Part shown: one piece after another, positions 2,794 to 8,672 of the stretch
Position numbering within the stretch: position 1 is the first letter of the stretch
How the letters are laid out: each line of letters starts with the position of its first letter
DNA from: a bacterium
GTDB lineage: Bacteria; SZUA-182; DTGQ01
Reading direction: 5' to 3'
Assembly: GCA_023512255.1 (NCBI GenBank)
Contig: JAILZY010000113.1
Span: 1 to 10,179, forward strand
DNA length: 10,179 nucleotides
Translations under genes and position numbers: made by a program
Notes under the pieces: model-generated
Told to the model about the DNA's origin: nothing
The model's input: the letters and a program-made list of their open reading frames with translations, nothing else
Database searches by the model: none

Positions 2794-3774
2794 CTAATCC
2801 GGTAGCAGATTTAACCTTGGGATCGGCTGAGGGATTTCTCCGAGCTCATGCAGGTAGTGGTAGTAGCGGAGCAATCCTTGCTGGTAGCGGGACGAAAACT
2901 CATAGTCAAGGTTTTGGATATAGCTTCGACAAATCGAAAGCTCTGCCGGCAGGCTGATTGAAGCCATGAATTGGTCAAGGTGATTCAGGCTCCAGTGTCG
3001 GCAGTCCAAAAGAGCCTGCCGAATCTGCAAAACGAGCTGCGGATTGTGATAAAATACCTCGTTTCTGACGATCCAGAGCGCAAATACAAAGGGCAAGCCG
3101 GTCATCTTCTTCCACTCTGCGCCAAGATCATATAGAAATGGAAAAGAGAGGCGCTCGCGGCTAGATGACCACCACTTCAAAGCCTGATCCCCAATAGCCA
3201 AAAAGGCAGAAAACTCAAACTGAGACCAAAGGGTTCCCCTACCCTCTTGTTCTGCTCCTTTTTCTTCCTCATCCGGCACCTTTCCCTGAACATAGACAGG
3301 CTCGATTCCCCGCTGAGAGAGTATAATTTTCAGCAAGGCCACCGAGGCTTCAGACTCGCTGGACAGGAGAATGGGCCGCCGGTGCAACTCCTCCATTGCA
3401 ACCCTACTCATTAGCAAAACACTGTACACCGGGCCATCCGAGCTAATGGAAAGATCGGGCAAAATTAAATAATGCTCGAAATTGCGGGCATATTCAATGG
3501 AAGAGACTACCGTCAGATCTATTTCTCCCTGCCTGATGGAGCGATTTAGGCAGGATGGTGGAGCCTCAACAATGGTGCATCGCTCAGCCAGAGCGGGATA
3601 GCGACTGGCCAGGCCAAAATATATGGGGGCATTGTTCAGGTAGGAGAGCTTGCCTAGGCGAAGTTTTCTCTCCTCTAGCCGCTGGTGGTGCGGCGGCTGC
3701 CCAATTGGCTGATTCCCTGATGATTGATTTTCTGAACAATAATGGTTCATGATTTTATCCGCTGGCTGACCCAT
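2794..3774 (-). CDS. mqnA: MqnA, chorismate dehydratase (futalosine menaquinone pathway)
   Basis: Chorismate dehydratase makes 3-[(1-carboxyvinyl)oxy]benzoate, the first committed step of the futalosine route. The protein has the family's periplasmic-binding-like fold signature: LRLGKLSYLNNAPIYFGL (38-55) and VVSSIEYARN (88-97), with SYLN and SS likely lining the substrate pocket. At 326 residues it is longer than the usual 270-290. There are about 36 extra residues at the N-terminus and an acidic stretch (EEEKGAEQEG, about 170) before FLAIGDQALKW. Two starts compete. ATG 3774 has a strong AGGGAGG four bases upstream and overlaps the preceding gene by 28 bp. ATG 3750 forms an ATGA overlap with that gene's stop but has no good ribosome site. 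I chose 3774. It is the last mqn gene of the operon; mqnD is not beside it. Confidence 0.93.
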   Translation of the reverse strand: MGQPADKIMNHYCSENQSSGNQPIGQPPHHQRLEERKLRLGKLSYLNNAPIYFGLASRYPALAERCTIVEAPPSCLNRSIRQGEIDLTVVSSIEYARNFEHYLILPDLSISSDGPVYSVLLMSRVAMEELHRRPILLSSESEASVALLKIILSQRGIEPVYVQGKVPDEEEKGAEQEGRGTLWSQFEFSAFLAIGDQALKWWSSSRERLSFPFLYDLGAEWKKMTGLPFVFALWIVRNEVFYHNPQLVLQIRQALLDCRHWSLNHLDQFMASISLPAELSICRSYIQNLDYEFSSRYQQGLLRYYHYLHELGEIPQPIPRLNLLPD

Positions 3775-5030
3775 TTGACCTCCCTGTAGCCACCTTCCAA
3801 GACCAGAGCATCCTCAAGTTCGCTGCCTGAGCGGGCGGTGATCGGAAGGAAAATCAATGAAGCCTCTTGTCCTGCCTCGATCTTGCCAAGCCCTTTTTCC
3901 CCTAAAGCCAAGGCCCCTGAAAGAGTAGCCATGCGCAGAATCTTTCTGCTGGATAGATTAGGCAGGGCGGCCTTTAAAAAAGCCATCTCCTGCCAGAGGC
4001 AGAGGCTGCTGTTGCTGGCTAAACTGTCGGTTCCAAGGCAAAGCGGTACTCCCCGCTCAAGGAATTTCAGCACCGGCGAAAGCCCTGTGCCCAGGTTATA
4101 GTTGCTCCTTGGGCAGAGACAAACCCAGGTTGCGGTTTTGGCCAAAAGCTCTATATCCTCATCAGATACCCAATTGGCATGCACGCAGATCGTCCGTGGC
4201 CGCAAGATTCCCTGCCCCGAAAGATACCTAACTGGCGTTGTCCTCGGTGGGGACCAGCTCTCATCCCATACTCCTCGCTCAATCAGGAATGACTTTAGCT
4301 CACCTTCTCCACTGGCTAGAAAGAGAAGCTCATGGCAAGATTCTGCCACATGGATAGAGAAGGGACGATCAGACCAAAGCTCACTTTGGCGCAAAAGCTG
4401 CAAGTAGCGAGCCGAGACACTATATGGGGCATGAGCAGCCAGGCTCAAGTGAACTCCTGCTGCCGAATGCGGGCCCAGAGCTAGAGCAGCCTGAATAGCG
4501 GCCTGGTTTTCTAGCTCCCGCTGAGGCCGAAAACCGATGGCTTCCAAGAAGATGCGGGCCGAGAGGCTGCTTTTCCGAAGCTCGTCAATGGAGGCTCCAG
4601 TGTTTGAAATATCACCTACCAGGCCAACTCCCCTCTGCCACAGCTCTCCGATGGCGGACCGAATCCCTTCAGCTACCTCACTGGCGGTGCACTCAGCCCT
4701 GGCCCGAACCAACTGCCTGATCCAGTCAACAAAACCGAAGGCTGCGGGCCGAATCTTTCCGGCTAGGCAGGAGAGCTCAAGGTGAGTGTGAGCATTGACC
4801 AGGGAGGGCATAATTACCCCATCTCCATGATCGACAAGGCGCGCTTGGCCTGCTTGATGGTGGTGAAGATACTTTTCCCGCATGGGCTTTGCGGCTCCGG
4901 CCTCAAGGATAATTCCATCCCGCACAGCCACGATCCCATCTTTGATCGGCACTGAGGATATGGGCAGAATCCAGGCTGCCCGGTGGAGGGAGAGTAAAGA
5001 TTCGGTCGGATCAGGATCAGAGCAGGGCAT
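3747..5030 (-). CDS. mqnX: Metal-dependent amidohydrolase, probable aminodeoxyfutalosine deaminase
   Basis: A 427-residue member of the cytosine deaminase/chlorohydrolase branch of the amidohydrolase superfamily. Metal and catalytic residues are visible in order: HTH (H81, H83) after MPSLVNA, H200 in AAHAP, H227 and E230 in SIHVAES, H284 in CVHANWVSDED, and D335 in GTDSLASN. The ends carry the small beta-sandwich typical of the family. Known substrates of relatives include S-adenosylhomocysteine, methylthioadenosine and guanine. Its place between mqnC and mqnA points to aminofutalosine, which it would deaminate to futalosine for MqnB to cleave. The start is ATG 5030 with AGGAG eight bases upstream; it overlaps the mqnC stop by 14 bp. 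The enzyme class is certain, and the substrate is inferred from gene context. Confidence 0.9.
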   Translation of the reverse strand: MPCSDPDPTESLLSLHRAAWILPISSVPIKDGIVAVRDGIILEAGAAKPMREKYLHHHQAGQARLVDHGDGVIMPSLVNAHTHLELSCLAGKIRPAAFGFVDWIRQLVRARAECTASEVAEGIRSAIGELWQRGVGLVGDISNTGASIDELRKSSLSARIFLEAIGFRPQRELENQAAIQAALALGPHSAAGVHLSLAAHAPYSVSARYLQLLRQSELWSDRPFSIHVAESCHELLFLASGEGELKSFLIERGVWDESWSPPRTTPVRYLSGQGILRPRTICVHANWVSDEDIELLAKTATWVCLCPRSNYNLGTGLSPVLKFLERGVPLCLGTDSLASNSSLCLWQEMAFLKAALPNLSSRKILRMATLSGALALGEKGLGKIEAGQEASLIFLPITARSGSELEDALVLEGGYREVKWVSQRIKS

Positions 5031-6090
5031 AGTCCATTCTCCTGCGCCTTGGCTGAAAGCCTGCCCCCTCGATTATCCTAATCAGCTCTGACTCCGGCAG
5101 CCGATAGGAGACCCCAGCAGCAGCTACTACATTTTCTTCAATCATGGTGGAGCCAAGATCATTAGCCCCGAAATTCAAGGCAATCTGGGCAACTTTGGCT
5201 CCTTGCGTAACCCAGGAGGCTTGAATATTGGGGATATTGTCCAAAAAAATTCGGCAGATGGCCAAAGTTTTAAGGTATTCGAACCCTGAGGCTGCCGGTC
5301 TTGAGATCAGGGAGGTATTGCCCGGCTGATAAGGCCAGGGGATAAAGGCGGTAAATCCCCCGGTTTTATCCTGGAGTTGACGAATCAGGTTAAGATGCTC
5401 AATCCGCTCAGGCAGAGTTTCGATATGCCCAAACATCATGGTGGCGGTGGTTTTTAAGCCAAGCCGGTGGGCTTTTTCCATGACCTCAAGCCATTCACGG
5501 CTGCTGCATTTGCATGGGGAAACCTCACGGCGCACCCGATCGACCAAAATTTCTGCTCCGCCGCCGGGAATAGAGTCAAGGCCGGCAGCCAAGAGCCGCT
5601 CAAGAACGGTCTCAACTGGCAGATTGTTCAGCCGGGCAAAGTGAATGATTTCTGGTGGAGAAAAGCCGTGAATGTGGATCTGGTAGCGGGACTTGATAAA
5701 TTCGAGAAGCTCCTGATAATAGTCAAGCTTCAAGCCGGGATGAAGCCCGCCCTGGAGCAGAATCTGAACGCCGCCAAGCTCCAGGGTTTCTTCGATTTTT
5801 TTCGCCAGCTCCTTGCGGGAGATGACATAGCTTCCCTCTGCTCCCTCCTCACGGAAAAAGGCACAAAAGCGGCACTTTGAAAGACAAATATTGGTATAGT
5901 TGATATTGCGGTCAACTATGTAGGTAACTATTTTGTCCGGGTGCAGGCGCTGCCGCTTGAGGTTAGCCAGAGCGCCCAAAGTCAAAAGATCCGCCTCTTC
6001 AAAGAGAATAGCCGCCTCTTGCGGCAAAAGGCGTACATCGGCCACTACCTTGTCGATAATGCTTTTCAGCAGGAAAGCGCTATCACTCAT
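5017..6090 (-). CDS. mqnC: MqnC, dehypoxanthine futalosine cyclase (radical SAM)
   Basis: A radical-SAM enzyme that cyclises dehypoxanthine futalosine to cyclic dehypoxanthine futalosine, building the naphthoquinol ring of menaquinone. The 357-residue length is normal. The cluster motif is C69-x3-C73-x2-C76 in NYTNICLSKCRFCAFFRE, preceded by YIVDRNI. Further family marks are LLQGGLHPGL, HIHGFSPPEI, DSIPGGGAEIL, TTATMMFGHIET, FIPWPYQPGNT and, near the end, GANDLGSTMIEENVV. MqnC and MqnE are paralogues. The WPYQPGNT segment and the position downstream of a second, clearly MqnE-like gene favour MqnC. The start is ATG 6090, 24 bp after the mqnE stop. A G-rich stretch (GAGGTGGGGG) about 12 bases upstream may be the ribosome site. 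Confidence 0.95.
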   Translation of the reverse strand: MSDSAFLLKSIIDKVVADVRLLPQEAAILFEEADLLTLGALANLKRQRLHPDKIVTYIVDRNINYTNICLSKCRFCAFFREEGAEGSYVISRKELAKKIEETLELGGVQILLQGGLHPGLKLDYYQELLEFIKSRYQIHIHGFSPPEIIHFARLNNLPVETVLERLLAAGLDSIPGGGAEILVDRVRREVSPCKCSSREWLEVMEKAHRLGLKTTATMMFGHIETLPERIEHLNLIRQLQDKTGGFTAFIPWPYQPGNTSLISRPAASGFEYLKTLAICRIFLDNIPNIQASWVTQGAKVAQIALNFGANDLGSTMIEENVVAAAGVSYRLPESELIRIIEGAGFQPRRRRMDYALL

Positions 6091-6114: not shown

Positions 6115-7341
6115 TCAGGTTTTAGAAACAACTCGTAAACTGGAATTGTGTCCTTGCGCTTCTGCCCCCTCCTCCTCGCTGATCAGGTTGTAGAGGGTAT
6201 CACGCTGCTTGGGCCAGCGGCCAGCTTCCCGAATCAGGCGGATCAGCTCCGACTGTGGCAGCCCTTGGGTAGTTTCCCCTCCGGCCATGTGGGTGATGCG
6301 CTCTTCAATAACCGTGCCATCTAGGTCATCTGCTCCAAAGGATAAGGCAATCTGGGCGATTTTTGGGGTTACCATGATCCAGAAAGGTTTTATATGGGCG
6401 AAATTATCAAGGAGCAGGCGGGCGACGGCAATGTTTTTCAAATCATCAAAACCGCTAGTTTTCTTAAGGGAAGAAAGTTTGGTATTGTGCGGGTGAAAAG
6501 CCAGGGGGATGAAAGCCAAAAATCCTCCATACTCATCCTGCACCTGCCGCAGGGCCAAGAGGTGTTCTACCCGCTCTTTCAGGGTCTCAATGTGTCCGTA
6601 AAGCATGGTCGCATTGCTCCTGATCCCAAGCCGATGGGCAACTCTCATGATCTCTAGCCACTCATTAGCTGGCAGTTTTTTCGGACAGACCATCTGGCGA
6701 ACCCGGGAGCTGAAAATTTCGGCTCCCCCACCTGGTAGGGAACCAAGACCTGCAGCTTGCAATTCCAGCAGAGTTTCGGCTGGGCTCTGGTTAGAGAGCT
6801 CGGCCAAATAGGCGATTTCAACCGCGGTAAAGGCCTGAATATGGACCTTAGGGCGAATTCTCTTGATAGTGGCCAGCATCTCAAGATAATAGCTATAGGG
6901 AAGCTTTTCATTCAGGCCACCGACAATATGAACCTCGGTTATAGGCTCATCCAGCCTTGATCTGATCTTGTCTGCGATCTCATCAAGGGACATGGTATAG
7001 GCGCCCTCTTCTCCTTCCCGGCGGCTGAAGGCGCAAAAACTGCACCCATTCCGGCAGATATTGGTATAGTTAAGATGCTGGTTGTAGACATAGTAGGCAT
7101 CTTGGCCATTGATTCTCTCTCTGACCAGGTTAGCTAGAAAACCTATGCCGAGAAGATTGTTCGATTGATACAGGGTCAATCCATCTTCAGCCGAAAGCCG
7201 CTTCCCAAGAAGGACCTTTTCATATATAGGCTCAAGATCAGGATCAAGGAAAAGCTTTGGGTCAAGGGAAGGCCTATGGGCAAGAAAAGACTCCGTTGGA
7301 TCAAAAGAAAATTTTGTGCTTATATCATGATTTATCTGCAT
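6115..7341 (-). CDS. mqnE: MqnE, aminofutalosine synthase (radical SAM)
   Basis: A radical-SAM enzyme that adds the adenosyl radical of SAM to the MqnA product and, with loss of CO2, gives aminofutalosine. It is 408 residues long. The cluster motif is C96-x3-C100-x2-C103 in NYTNICRNGCSFCAFSRREG, preceded by YYVYNQH. Family marks include HIVGGLNEKLPYSYY, VHIQAFTAVEI, GSLPGGGAEIF, SNATMLYGHIET, FIPLAFHPHNT and GADDLDGTVIEERITHMAG. The IPLAFHPHNT segment, where MqnC has IPWPYQPGNT, and the GGLNEKLP loop fit MqnE. About 40 N-terminal residues before the family core and about 20 after it are less conserved. The start is ATG 7341 with GGAG seven bases upstream, overlapping the tetR stop by 10 bp, so translation is probably coupled. 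Confidence 0.95.
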   Translation of the reverse strand: MQINHDISTKFSFDPTESFLAHRPSLDPKLFLDPDLEPIYEKVLLGKRLSAEDGLTLYQSNNLLGIGFLANLVRERINGQDAYYVYNQHLNYTNICRNGCSFCAFSRREGEEGAYTMSLDEIADKIRSRLDEPITEVHIVGGLNEKLPYSYYLEMLATIKRIRPKVHIQAFTAVEIAYLAELSNQSPAETLLELQAAGLGSLPGGGAEIFSSRVRQMVCPKKLPANEWLEIMRVAHRLGIRSNATMLYGHIETLKERVEHLLALRQVQDEYGGFLAFIPLAFHPHNTKLSSLKKTSGFDDLKNIAVARLLLDNFAHIKPFWIMVTPKIAQIALSFGADDLDGTVIEERITHMAGGETTQGLPQSELIRLIREAGRWPKQRDTLYNLISEEEGAEAQGHNSSLRVVSKT

Positions 7342-8216
7342 CTATCCGCTCCATTGCCTGAATCCGCCTCCGGTCTTCCTTCTTGTGTCGATGGCGGAAG
7401 GCTTTGCTGCGGGGAGGCGATGAGTCCCCGCTTCAATATATCAATCAGTTCTGCCACCAGGTCCTGCTCCTGATCCTTTGGCCTGATCCAGAGGGCAGGA
7501 GAGGCAGGATAAGGTGGTATCGCTGGGTTTCCAGTCGGTTGGTTTCCGTTTCCATGAGAAGATACTTTTGGCTCTCCAGGAGAAGATGGTGACATACCAG
7601 GAGAATATGGTGAGGTAGATGATAATGGAGAAGATACATAAGCCGGCTCAGGATGAGCCAAAAGATCAGGATGAGCGCAAAGATATGATTGGAGGATCCG
7701 ATCAACGAGGGCCATAATCATGAAGGCCACCAGATGAGGCTGGCAATCGGTCCTGATCTCACCCCGCGACTTTCCCTCCTCCAGCAGGGGAACCAGATAC
7801 CCTAAGGAAGAGAGATAAATCCGCTCAACTAACTCCTGTTTGAGGGGCAGGTCGTTTTCAAAAATCGTTCTCAAGTAAAGACGAAATATTAGCGGGTAAT
7901 TTTTTACAAATTGAATGGCCGAAGAGAAAAAGGCCTGAATTTTAGTGAAGGTATCCTGGCCGGGCAAAACATCCTTTTCTGCCTGGCGAACCATATCTTT
8001 AATCAACTGGAGGCCATAATCAAAGATATAGCGAAACAGGCTTTCCTTATTGGAAAAGTACTGATAGATCGACCCCTTGGCAATTCCCAGGTTAGCGATC
8101 ATAGTATTGATACTGGCCTTCTGGTACCCCTTGGTGGCAAACTCCTGGATGGCCACGTCGATAATTTTCTTCCGCTTCTCCTGGGGAAGGTTCCAAAAGG
8201 TCTGCTTCGCCAGCAT
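7332..8216 (-). CDS. TetR-family regulator, first gene of the mqn operon, with a Ser/Pro/Gly-rich insertion
   Basis: A 294-residue TetR-type repressor. The helix-turn-helix domain covers about residues 12-60, with KKIIDVAIQEFATKGY, the turn at ASINTMIANLGIAKG and the recognition helix end SIYQYFSNKESLF. The ligand-binding and dimer domain follows. Ordinary family members have 190-220 residues. Here a low-complexity stretch of about 45 residues rich in Ser, Pro and Gly (about 195-242) precedes the usual last helix, LVAELIDILKRGL, and a polar tail. I chose ATG 8216 with AAGGAG upstream (13-base gap). A TTG at 8252 would add 12 residues but has no ribosome site. The gene overlaps mqnE by 10 bp, and a perfect palindrome lies on the operon promoter, so it likely represses itself and the pathway. 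The inducing ligand cannot be told. Confidence 0.92.
   Translation of the reverse strand: MLAKQTFWNLPQEKRKKIIDVAIQEFATKGYQKASINTMIANLGIAKGSIYQYFSNKESLFRYIFDYGLQLIKDMVRQAEKDVLPGQDTFTKIQAFFSSAIQFVKNYPLIFRLYLRTIFENDLPLKQELVERIYLSSLGYLVPLLEEGKSRGEIRTDCQPHLVAFMIMALVDRILQSYLCAHPDLLAHPEPAYVSSPLSSTSPYSPGMSPSSPGEPKVSSHGNGNQPTGNPAIPPYPASPALWIRPKDQEQDLVAELIDILKRGLIASPQQSLPPSTQEGRPEADSGNGADRCR
7576..7617. repeat. 21-bp in-frame duplication inside tetR
   Basis: Two adjacent 21-bp units (7576-7596, 7597-7617) differ at few bases, and weaker copies of GGAGAAGATAC lie on both sides (7556-7565, 7627-7636). Being 21 bp, they add seven residues per unit and keep the frame. On the minus strand they encode the repeated pattern S-P-x-S-P-G-x, which makes the Pro/Ser/Gly-rich insertion of the regulator. 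Confidence 0.8.
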
Positions 8217-8345
8217 TGATTTTCCATCTCTCCTTGAATTATAGTGCTTCAACTTTGGTTTTTTCAGGCATAATTTTATATTAGCTATTTTGGTAAAAAT
8301 TTATAGTTTATTTCAATACTATATTTAGTTTACTATAAAAACTTT

Positions 8346-8369
8346 AAAAACTTGAATAAAAACTTGAAT
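8346..8369. repeat. 12-bp perfect tandem duplication
   Basis: AAAAACTTGAAT occurs twice head to tail (8346-8357, 8358-8369) within the AT-rich 5' leader of the tetR-mqn transcript. Confidence 0.85.
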
Positions 8370-8412
8370 GAGTATAGGTTAAGAATACGTAATAGCTTAA
8401 GAAAATATGAGT

Positions 8413-8434
8413 AATATGACCAGGTGGTCATATT
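8413..8434. promoter_or_regulatory. perfect 22-bp palindrome, probable TetR operator
   Basis: Arms AATATGACCA and TGGTCATATT are exact inverted copies separated by GG. The TGACC/GGTCA core is the kind of site bound by many TetR-family repressors. The site begins seven bases after the -10 box of the minus-strand promoter, so it sits at about +1 to +22 of the tetR-mqn transcript, where a bound repressor would block initiation. The binding protein is inferred to be the adjacent TetR. Confidence 0.8.
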
Positions 8435-8441
8435 TATGATT

Positions 8442-8470
8442 ATGATACTTTCTCTGGACCAGAATGTCAA
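8442..8470 (-). promoter_or_regulatory. sigma-70 promoter of the tetR-mqnE-mqnC-mqnX-mqnA operon
   Basis: On the minus strand TTGACA (8465-8470) and TATCAT (8442-8447) are separated by exactly 17 bases. The -35 box is perfect and the -10 box matches at five of six positions. Transcription should start near 8434-8436, giving a leader of about 220 bases before the tetR ATG. The leader is AT-rich, with no riboswitch or ORF I can recognise. The palindrome directly downstream is the likely operator. Confidence 0.8.
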
Positions 8471-8549
8471 TGGCCAAGAAGTGAGAAATTAGAGGGTTGG
8501 GAAGGCTGAGGAAGATTCGTGCTCTGATTATGCTCTCTGAACAATTCTC

Positions 8550-8578
8550 TTGACATCCGCCTGCCCTGCTCGTATAAT
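8550..8578 (+). promoter_or_regulatory. consensus sigma-70 promoter of tRNA-Gly
   Basis: TTGACA (8550-8555), a 17-base spacer and TATAAT (8573-8578) match the consensus at all twelve positions. The start of transcription would be near 8585, about eight bases before the mature tRNA 5' end. It points away from the operon promoter at 8442-8470, with about 80 bp between the two -35 boxes. Confidence 0.9.
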
Positions 8579-8592
8579 GCAACCTGAAAAAT

Positions 8593-8664
8593 GCGGGCAT
8601 AACTCAGCGGTAGAGTACAAGCTTCCCAAGCTTGGAGTCGCGGGTTCGAATCCCGTTGCCCGCT
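8593..8664 (+). tRNA. tRNA-Gly (anticodon CCC)
   Basis: A complete cloverleaf can be folded: acceptor GCGGGCA with TGCCCGC, D arm ACTC/GAGT, anticodon stem CAAGC/GCTTG around the loop TTCCCAA, and T arm GCGGG/CCCGT with loop TTCGAAT. The discriminator is U, usual for bacterial tRNA-Gly. CCA is not encoded. It is followed at once by CTTTTTTT, a likely stop signal for transcription. Confidence 0.95.
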
Positions 8665-8672
8665 CTTTTTTT
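8665..8672 (+). terminator. T-run ending the tRNA-Gly transcript
   Basis: C followed by seven T directly after the tRNA. The tRNA acceptor and T arms could serve as the upstream stem. No separate hairpin stands between. Confidence 0.45.

Follow-up and report, generated by a model that had tools for sequence, protein, structure and literature searches.

A TetR-family regulator and its putative palindromic operator at the promoter of a futalosine-pathway menaquinone operon

The 10,179-nt stretch of bacterial DNA analysed here (the window) carries on its minus strand a menaquinone (vitamin K2) operon of the alternative futalosine pathway, with a conserved palindrome at its promoter. This palindrome is very probably the operator of the TetR-family protein encoded by the first gene, which would repress its own mqnE-mqnC-deaminase-mqnA operon by promoter blocking. 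The promoter, the palindrome, the operon, their conservation, the co-occurrence and the near single-copy state of the site were all computed. The name MqnR is used for the TetR as a label only.

The putative operator lies at 8413..8434 (-), reads AATATGACCA-CC-TGGTCATATT with the core ATGACCANNTGGTCAT, and was recognized as an inverted repeat and by its conservation. Two perfect 10-bp arms flank a 2-bp centre, GG on the plus strand and CC on the minus strand; the perfect 22-bp palindrome described in the initial annotation thus holds for its 10 + 10 arms but not for the centre, which is not self-complementary. Dinucleotide shuffling of the intergenic region 8220-8592 produced an inverted repeat of such size (arms of at least 10, gap of 0-10) in 0.4% of cases, and in our reading far more weight against a chance origin comes from conservation than from shuffling. 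The -35 hexamer TTGACA (8465..8470, -), conserved in the related genomes G001 and G002, is followed after a 17-nt spacer by the -10 hexamer TATCAT (8442..8447, -). Together they agree with the consensus at 11 of 12 positions, in line with the near-consensus promoter first noticed there, and the seven bases said to precede the palindrome were confirmed as AATCATA, after which the dyad begins at 8434. The position of the -10 hexamer predicts a transcription start at about 8435-8432.

A scan of the minus strand flagged the same element as a terminator-like site, and it could in principle form an RNA hairpin at the transcript's 5' end, serving as an attenuator, terminator or stabilizer. We consider this very improbable. 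A proper T run is absent, the sequence itself, beyond its pairing, is near-invariant across phyla, and the site overlaps the -10 hexamer in many loci and is hence partly untranscribed there. The Rfam search matched only tRNAs, and an RNA element was rejected on this result.

The genes tetR, mqnE, mqnC, an amidohydrolase gene and mqnA overlap or stand 24 nt apart, as would suit a single operon. The first gene, tetR (7332..8216, -; 294 aa), starts with the ATG at 8216, a start supported by relatives, and overlaps mqnE by 10 nt. Its identification as a TetR regulator in the initial annotation was upheld by the N-terminal helix-turn-helix domain (PF00440, 47.3 bits, cut-off 24) and by an AF2 model with the TetR fold. 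The next two genes encode aminofutalosine synthase MqnE (6115..7341, -; TIGR03700, 491.8 bits, cut-off 434.55) and cyclic dehypoxanthinyl futalosine synthase MqnC (5017..6090, -; TIGR03699, 496.5 bits, cut-off 428.1). The amidohydrolase (3747..5030, -; PF01979 over cut-off) is probably an aminofutalosine deaminase (mqnX), as its top NCBIfam model is that family, although it scores 156 bits where the cut-off is 320. The last gene encodes an MqnA-like chorismate dehydratase (2794..3774, -; PF02621, 200 bits, over the Pfam cut-off). The later-step gene mqnL was found over the TIGR03701 cut-off in the window genome (G000) and in its three relatives G001-G003. In G000 it lies on a separate contig without the site, so that the "complete self-regulated unit for menaquinone synthesis" proposed at first does not cover the full pathway. 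A long AT-rich inverted repeat (20 pairs) at 2717-2762, between mqnA and a DUF362-ferredoxin gene, may end the mqn operon; the DUF362-ferredoxin gene stands outside the mqn operon in G002.

The phylum of G000 has nine genomes in the collection. The TetR was found in all four genomes of the G000 family and in none of the other five, four of which have mqnE-like genes. The gene order of G000 is kept in G001 and G002, and in G003 as far as its contig reaches; this contig begins inside tetR, and the upstream comparison covers G001 and G002. Both retain the promoter hexamers with their 17-nt spacing and the dyad, although the surrounding sequence has mostly diverged, and the two arms have changed together, from TATGACC...GGTCATA to TGTGACC...GGTCACA. 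A kept dyad with matched arm changes amid diverged flanks is the pattern of a protein-binding dyad. Two features count against the operator reading: the distance from the -10 hexamer to the core is 11 nt in the window genome versus 8 nt in G001 and G002, and the AT-rich leader from the operator to tetR (8217-8412) is about 200 nt in the window genome, longer than elsewhere (about 45-60 nt in relatives). A wider regulon in G000-G003 was rejected, as the near-matches to the site that were read fall in open frames. In G002, which is of the same genus, a single open frame of 791 codons (L096:10122-12497, -) runs through mqnE and mqnC without a stop between them, possibly encoding a fused MqnE-MqnC enzyme.

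The association of this TetR with menaquinone genes recurs in a second phylum, reached from the seed G012 (a Deltaproteobacteria MAG) and taken as Desulfobacterota, where 91 of 395 genomes gave a TetR match at an E value of 1e-15 or lower, with 41-48% identity for the best matches. Eighty TetR loci were read in this phylum, and 73 of them adjoin menaquinone genes. The pair mqnE-mqnC stands directly downstream of tetR in 50, mostly with the deaminase gene and mqnA as well; 23 of the remaining 30 adjoin other menaquinone genes (mqnL-mqnP, mqnB and/or mqnD, or UbiE-type with UbiA/MenA-type genes), and the last seven comprise two loci cut by contig ends and five weaker paralogues. All 50 tetR-mqnE loci carry the site upstream of tetR. 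A contingency test of the site against mqnE downstream gave p = 2e-13, a value that is only a guide because the genomes are related. The site consensus of these loci, ATGACCANNTGGTCAT, is matched exactly by the window site, and a sigma-70-like promoter overlaps the site, its -10 hexamer most often beginning 5 or 2 nt before TGACC. Where tetR lies with mqnB-mqnD and has no site of its own, the site was found at mqnE, or shortly before it, in each of the five genomes checked (G282, G320, G428, G549 and G015). Such departures from the tetR-mqnE arrangement add weight to the interpretation. A lack of conservation upstream of orthologous operons had been named in the initial annotation as a finding that would speak against the operator; the site instead recurs in G001, G002 and every tetR-mqnE operon of the second phylum, and its conservation extends to genomes with tetR elsewhere.

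Relatives of the TetR were also sought from three further seeds, G013 (Ktedonobacterales), G009 and G017, whose groups are taken as Chloroflexota, Clostridia and Spirochaetota, respectively. The Chloroflexota and Clostridia TetRs are 28-37% identical to that of the window and share its half-sites, which often form tandem TGACC-N4-GGTCA dyads spaced 16 bp apart (L183-L198 and L219-L231). No mqn genes were found near these sister TetRs, and ABC exporter genes (FLQE3-type or MacB/FtsX-type) adjoin the sister tetR in many Chloroflexota loci. A matrix derived solely from 20 Chloroflexota sites scored the window site at 31.9 bits, with a runner-up in the window of 2.3. A quick tree built with 150 TetRs placed all 76 menaquinone-linked proteins, together with two contig-truncated TetRs, apart from the rest by a single branch (SH-aLRT 98). 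These two results suggest that the DNA recognition is common to more than the menaquinone-linked TetRs and that within one TetR clade the link to menaquinone genes is both old and stable, the direction of change not being firmly rooted. The early picture of a clade-private switch was rejected, since whole-genome searches found these distant relatives. Of 20 loci of Spirochaetota relatives, only two showed operator-like sites and none had mqn genes; the viral contigs searched gave no match.

The site could also belong to another regulator of the genome, and G000 does have weak TetR paralogues (23-26% identity). This is the least credible of the readings considered, as the occurrence of the site follows this TetR clade and its sisters from phylum to phylum. 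A pattern-based scan of genome contigs, which missed the best relatives, returned 80 loci of mostly generic TetRs, none of them with mqn neighbours or the exact site.

The sister loci bear on a further alternative, in which the TetR does bind here, yet its main task is to sense and manage a transported quinone-like or drug-like compound, control of mqn genes being one output of a wider transport regulon. In its favour, many Chloroflexota loci combine a sister TetR of shared half-sites with neighbouring ABC exporter genes, the sister subfamily seems to manage such compounds, and an NMT1-type binding protein with an ABC transporter occurs in some menaquinone-linked operons. However, 29 genomes of the menaquinone-linked clade gave roughly one copy each of the exact core TGACCANNTGGTCA, at mqn genes, the extra hits that were read lying in open frames, and no transporter stands beside tetR in most of these operons. 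We therefore regard a primary role in transport as improbable. The genes for the NMT1-type binding protein, ABC ATPase and permease (L261, L262, L268, L328, L330 and L333) lie beside mqnL-mqnP or UbiE/MenA-type genes, and are a candidate importer of a menaquinone precursor.

The AF2 model of the window TetR showed an all-helical TetR fold (pLDDT 82), with many TetRs at Z above 17. The closest solved chain, by sequence (E 1.7e-24) and by fold (Z 21.4), is 3nrg, an uncharacterised structural-genomics TetR (Caur_2714) of Chloroflexus aurantiacus, and a literature search with its locus tag found nothing relevant. Upstream of the Caur_2714 gene (L184) stand the same half-sites, and one site there is nearly identical to that of the window. 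The gene differs in having tandem sites 16 bp apart and ABC exporter genes instead of mqn genes as neighbours, and its product falls on the opposite side of the tree branch. The tandem dyads before Chloroflexota tetR and ABC exporter operons suggest an unstudied exporter regulon around 3nrg.

FadR-type acyl-CoA regulators are among the next closest folds. Bacillus FadR (YsiA), a TetR-type acyl-CoA-responsive repressor, is close in fold (3whb/3whc, Z about 18) and gives the top NCBIfam match of the window TetR (NF053878), but this match reached 55.2 bits against a cut-off of 200, and the neighbours of the window TetR are mqn genes, not a fatty-acid degradation operon. Weak NCBIfam matches also pointed to AcrR/MtrR-type repressors, which are local regulators with a palindromic operator at the promoter. 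A palindromic promoter site, a TetR-family feature, is present in the window, in G001 and G002 and in 50 further loci; unlike the AcrR/MtrR types, the window TetR is encoded by the first gene of a respiratory-quinone biosynthesis operon, its predicted target of control, and not beside efflux genes. A low-confidence Pro/Ser-rich stretch precedes its last helix (residues about 193-245; 7480-7640, -), and the G001 and G002 TetRs are shorter there.

From family and geometry, we infer that the TetR binds and represses at this site. A TetR dimer, or a pair of dimers, would sit on ATGACCANNTGGTCAT at the transcription start and block sigma-70 RNA polymerase, and tetR-mqnE-mqnC-mqnX-mqnA would be repressed together, with negative autoregulation. 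Repression by blocking is proposed because the site lies at -10/+1, is near single copy and has tetR as the first gene behind it; the position fits repression but does not prove the sign of regulation. An effector would weaken or strengthen TetR binding and so match menaquinone synthesis to need. As sister TetRs serve other genes, the ligand is not readable from the operon alone. By analogy, a hydrophobic quinone-like or acyl-type molecule is most likely, since acyl-CoAs are bound by the closest structural relatives for which a ligand is known, and the modelled fold near the FadR types makes a hydrophobic effector plausible. Biosynthetic operons are often shut by their end product, and some TetR-family proteins activate. 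On these general grounds, the TetR might be an activator, or a repressor with menaquinone as corepressor, and not a classic inducer-released repressor. This is less likely, though with an appreciable probability: the overlap of the site with -10/+1 in nearly all loci suits blocking, but does not separate inducer release, as by a pathway intermediate, from corepression by menaquinone.

A TetR regulator with a palindromic operator is of a known kind; for one dedicated to the futalosine pathway we found no description in NCBIfam, Pfam or open-access papers, RegPrecise and most subscription journals lying outside the search. With moderate confidence, we propose a previously undescribed TetR clade that is devoted to menaquinone synthesis in two or more phyla, responds to menaquinone itself or to an intermediate of the futalosine pathway, acts there as the general switch of the pathway, and shares an ancestor with ABC-exporter regulators reading the same half-site. 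Many bacteria make their respiratory quinone by the futalosine route, and with one protein, a 16-bp putative operator and some 75 menaquinone-linked loci, its control becomes directly testable. The identity of the effector would show how cells sense quinone supply and would provide a biosensor part.

Divergent from the mqn promoter, a sigma-70 promoter matching the consensus at 12 of 12 positions lies at 8550-8578 (+), upstream of a tRNA-Gly gene (8593-8665).
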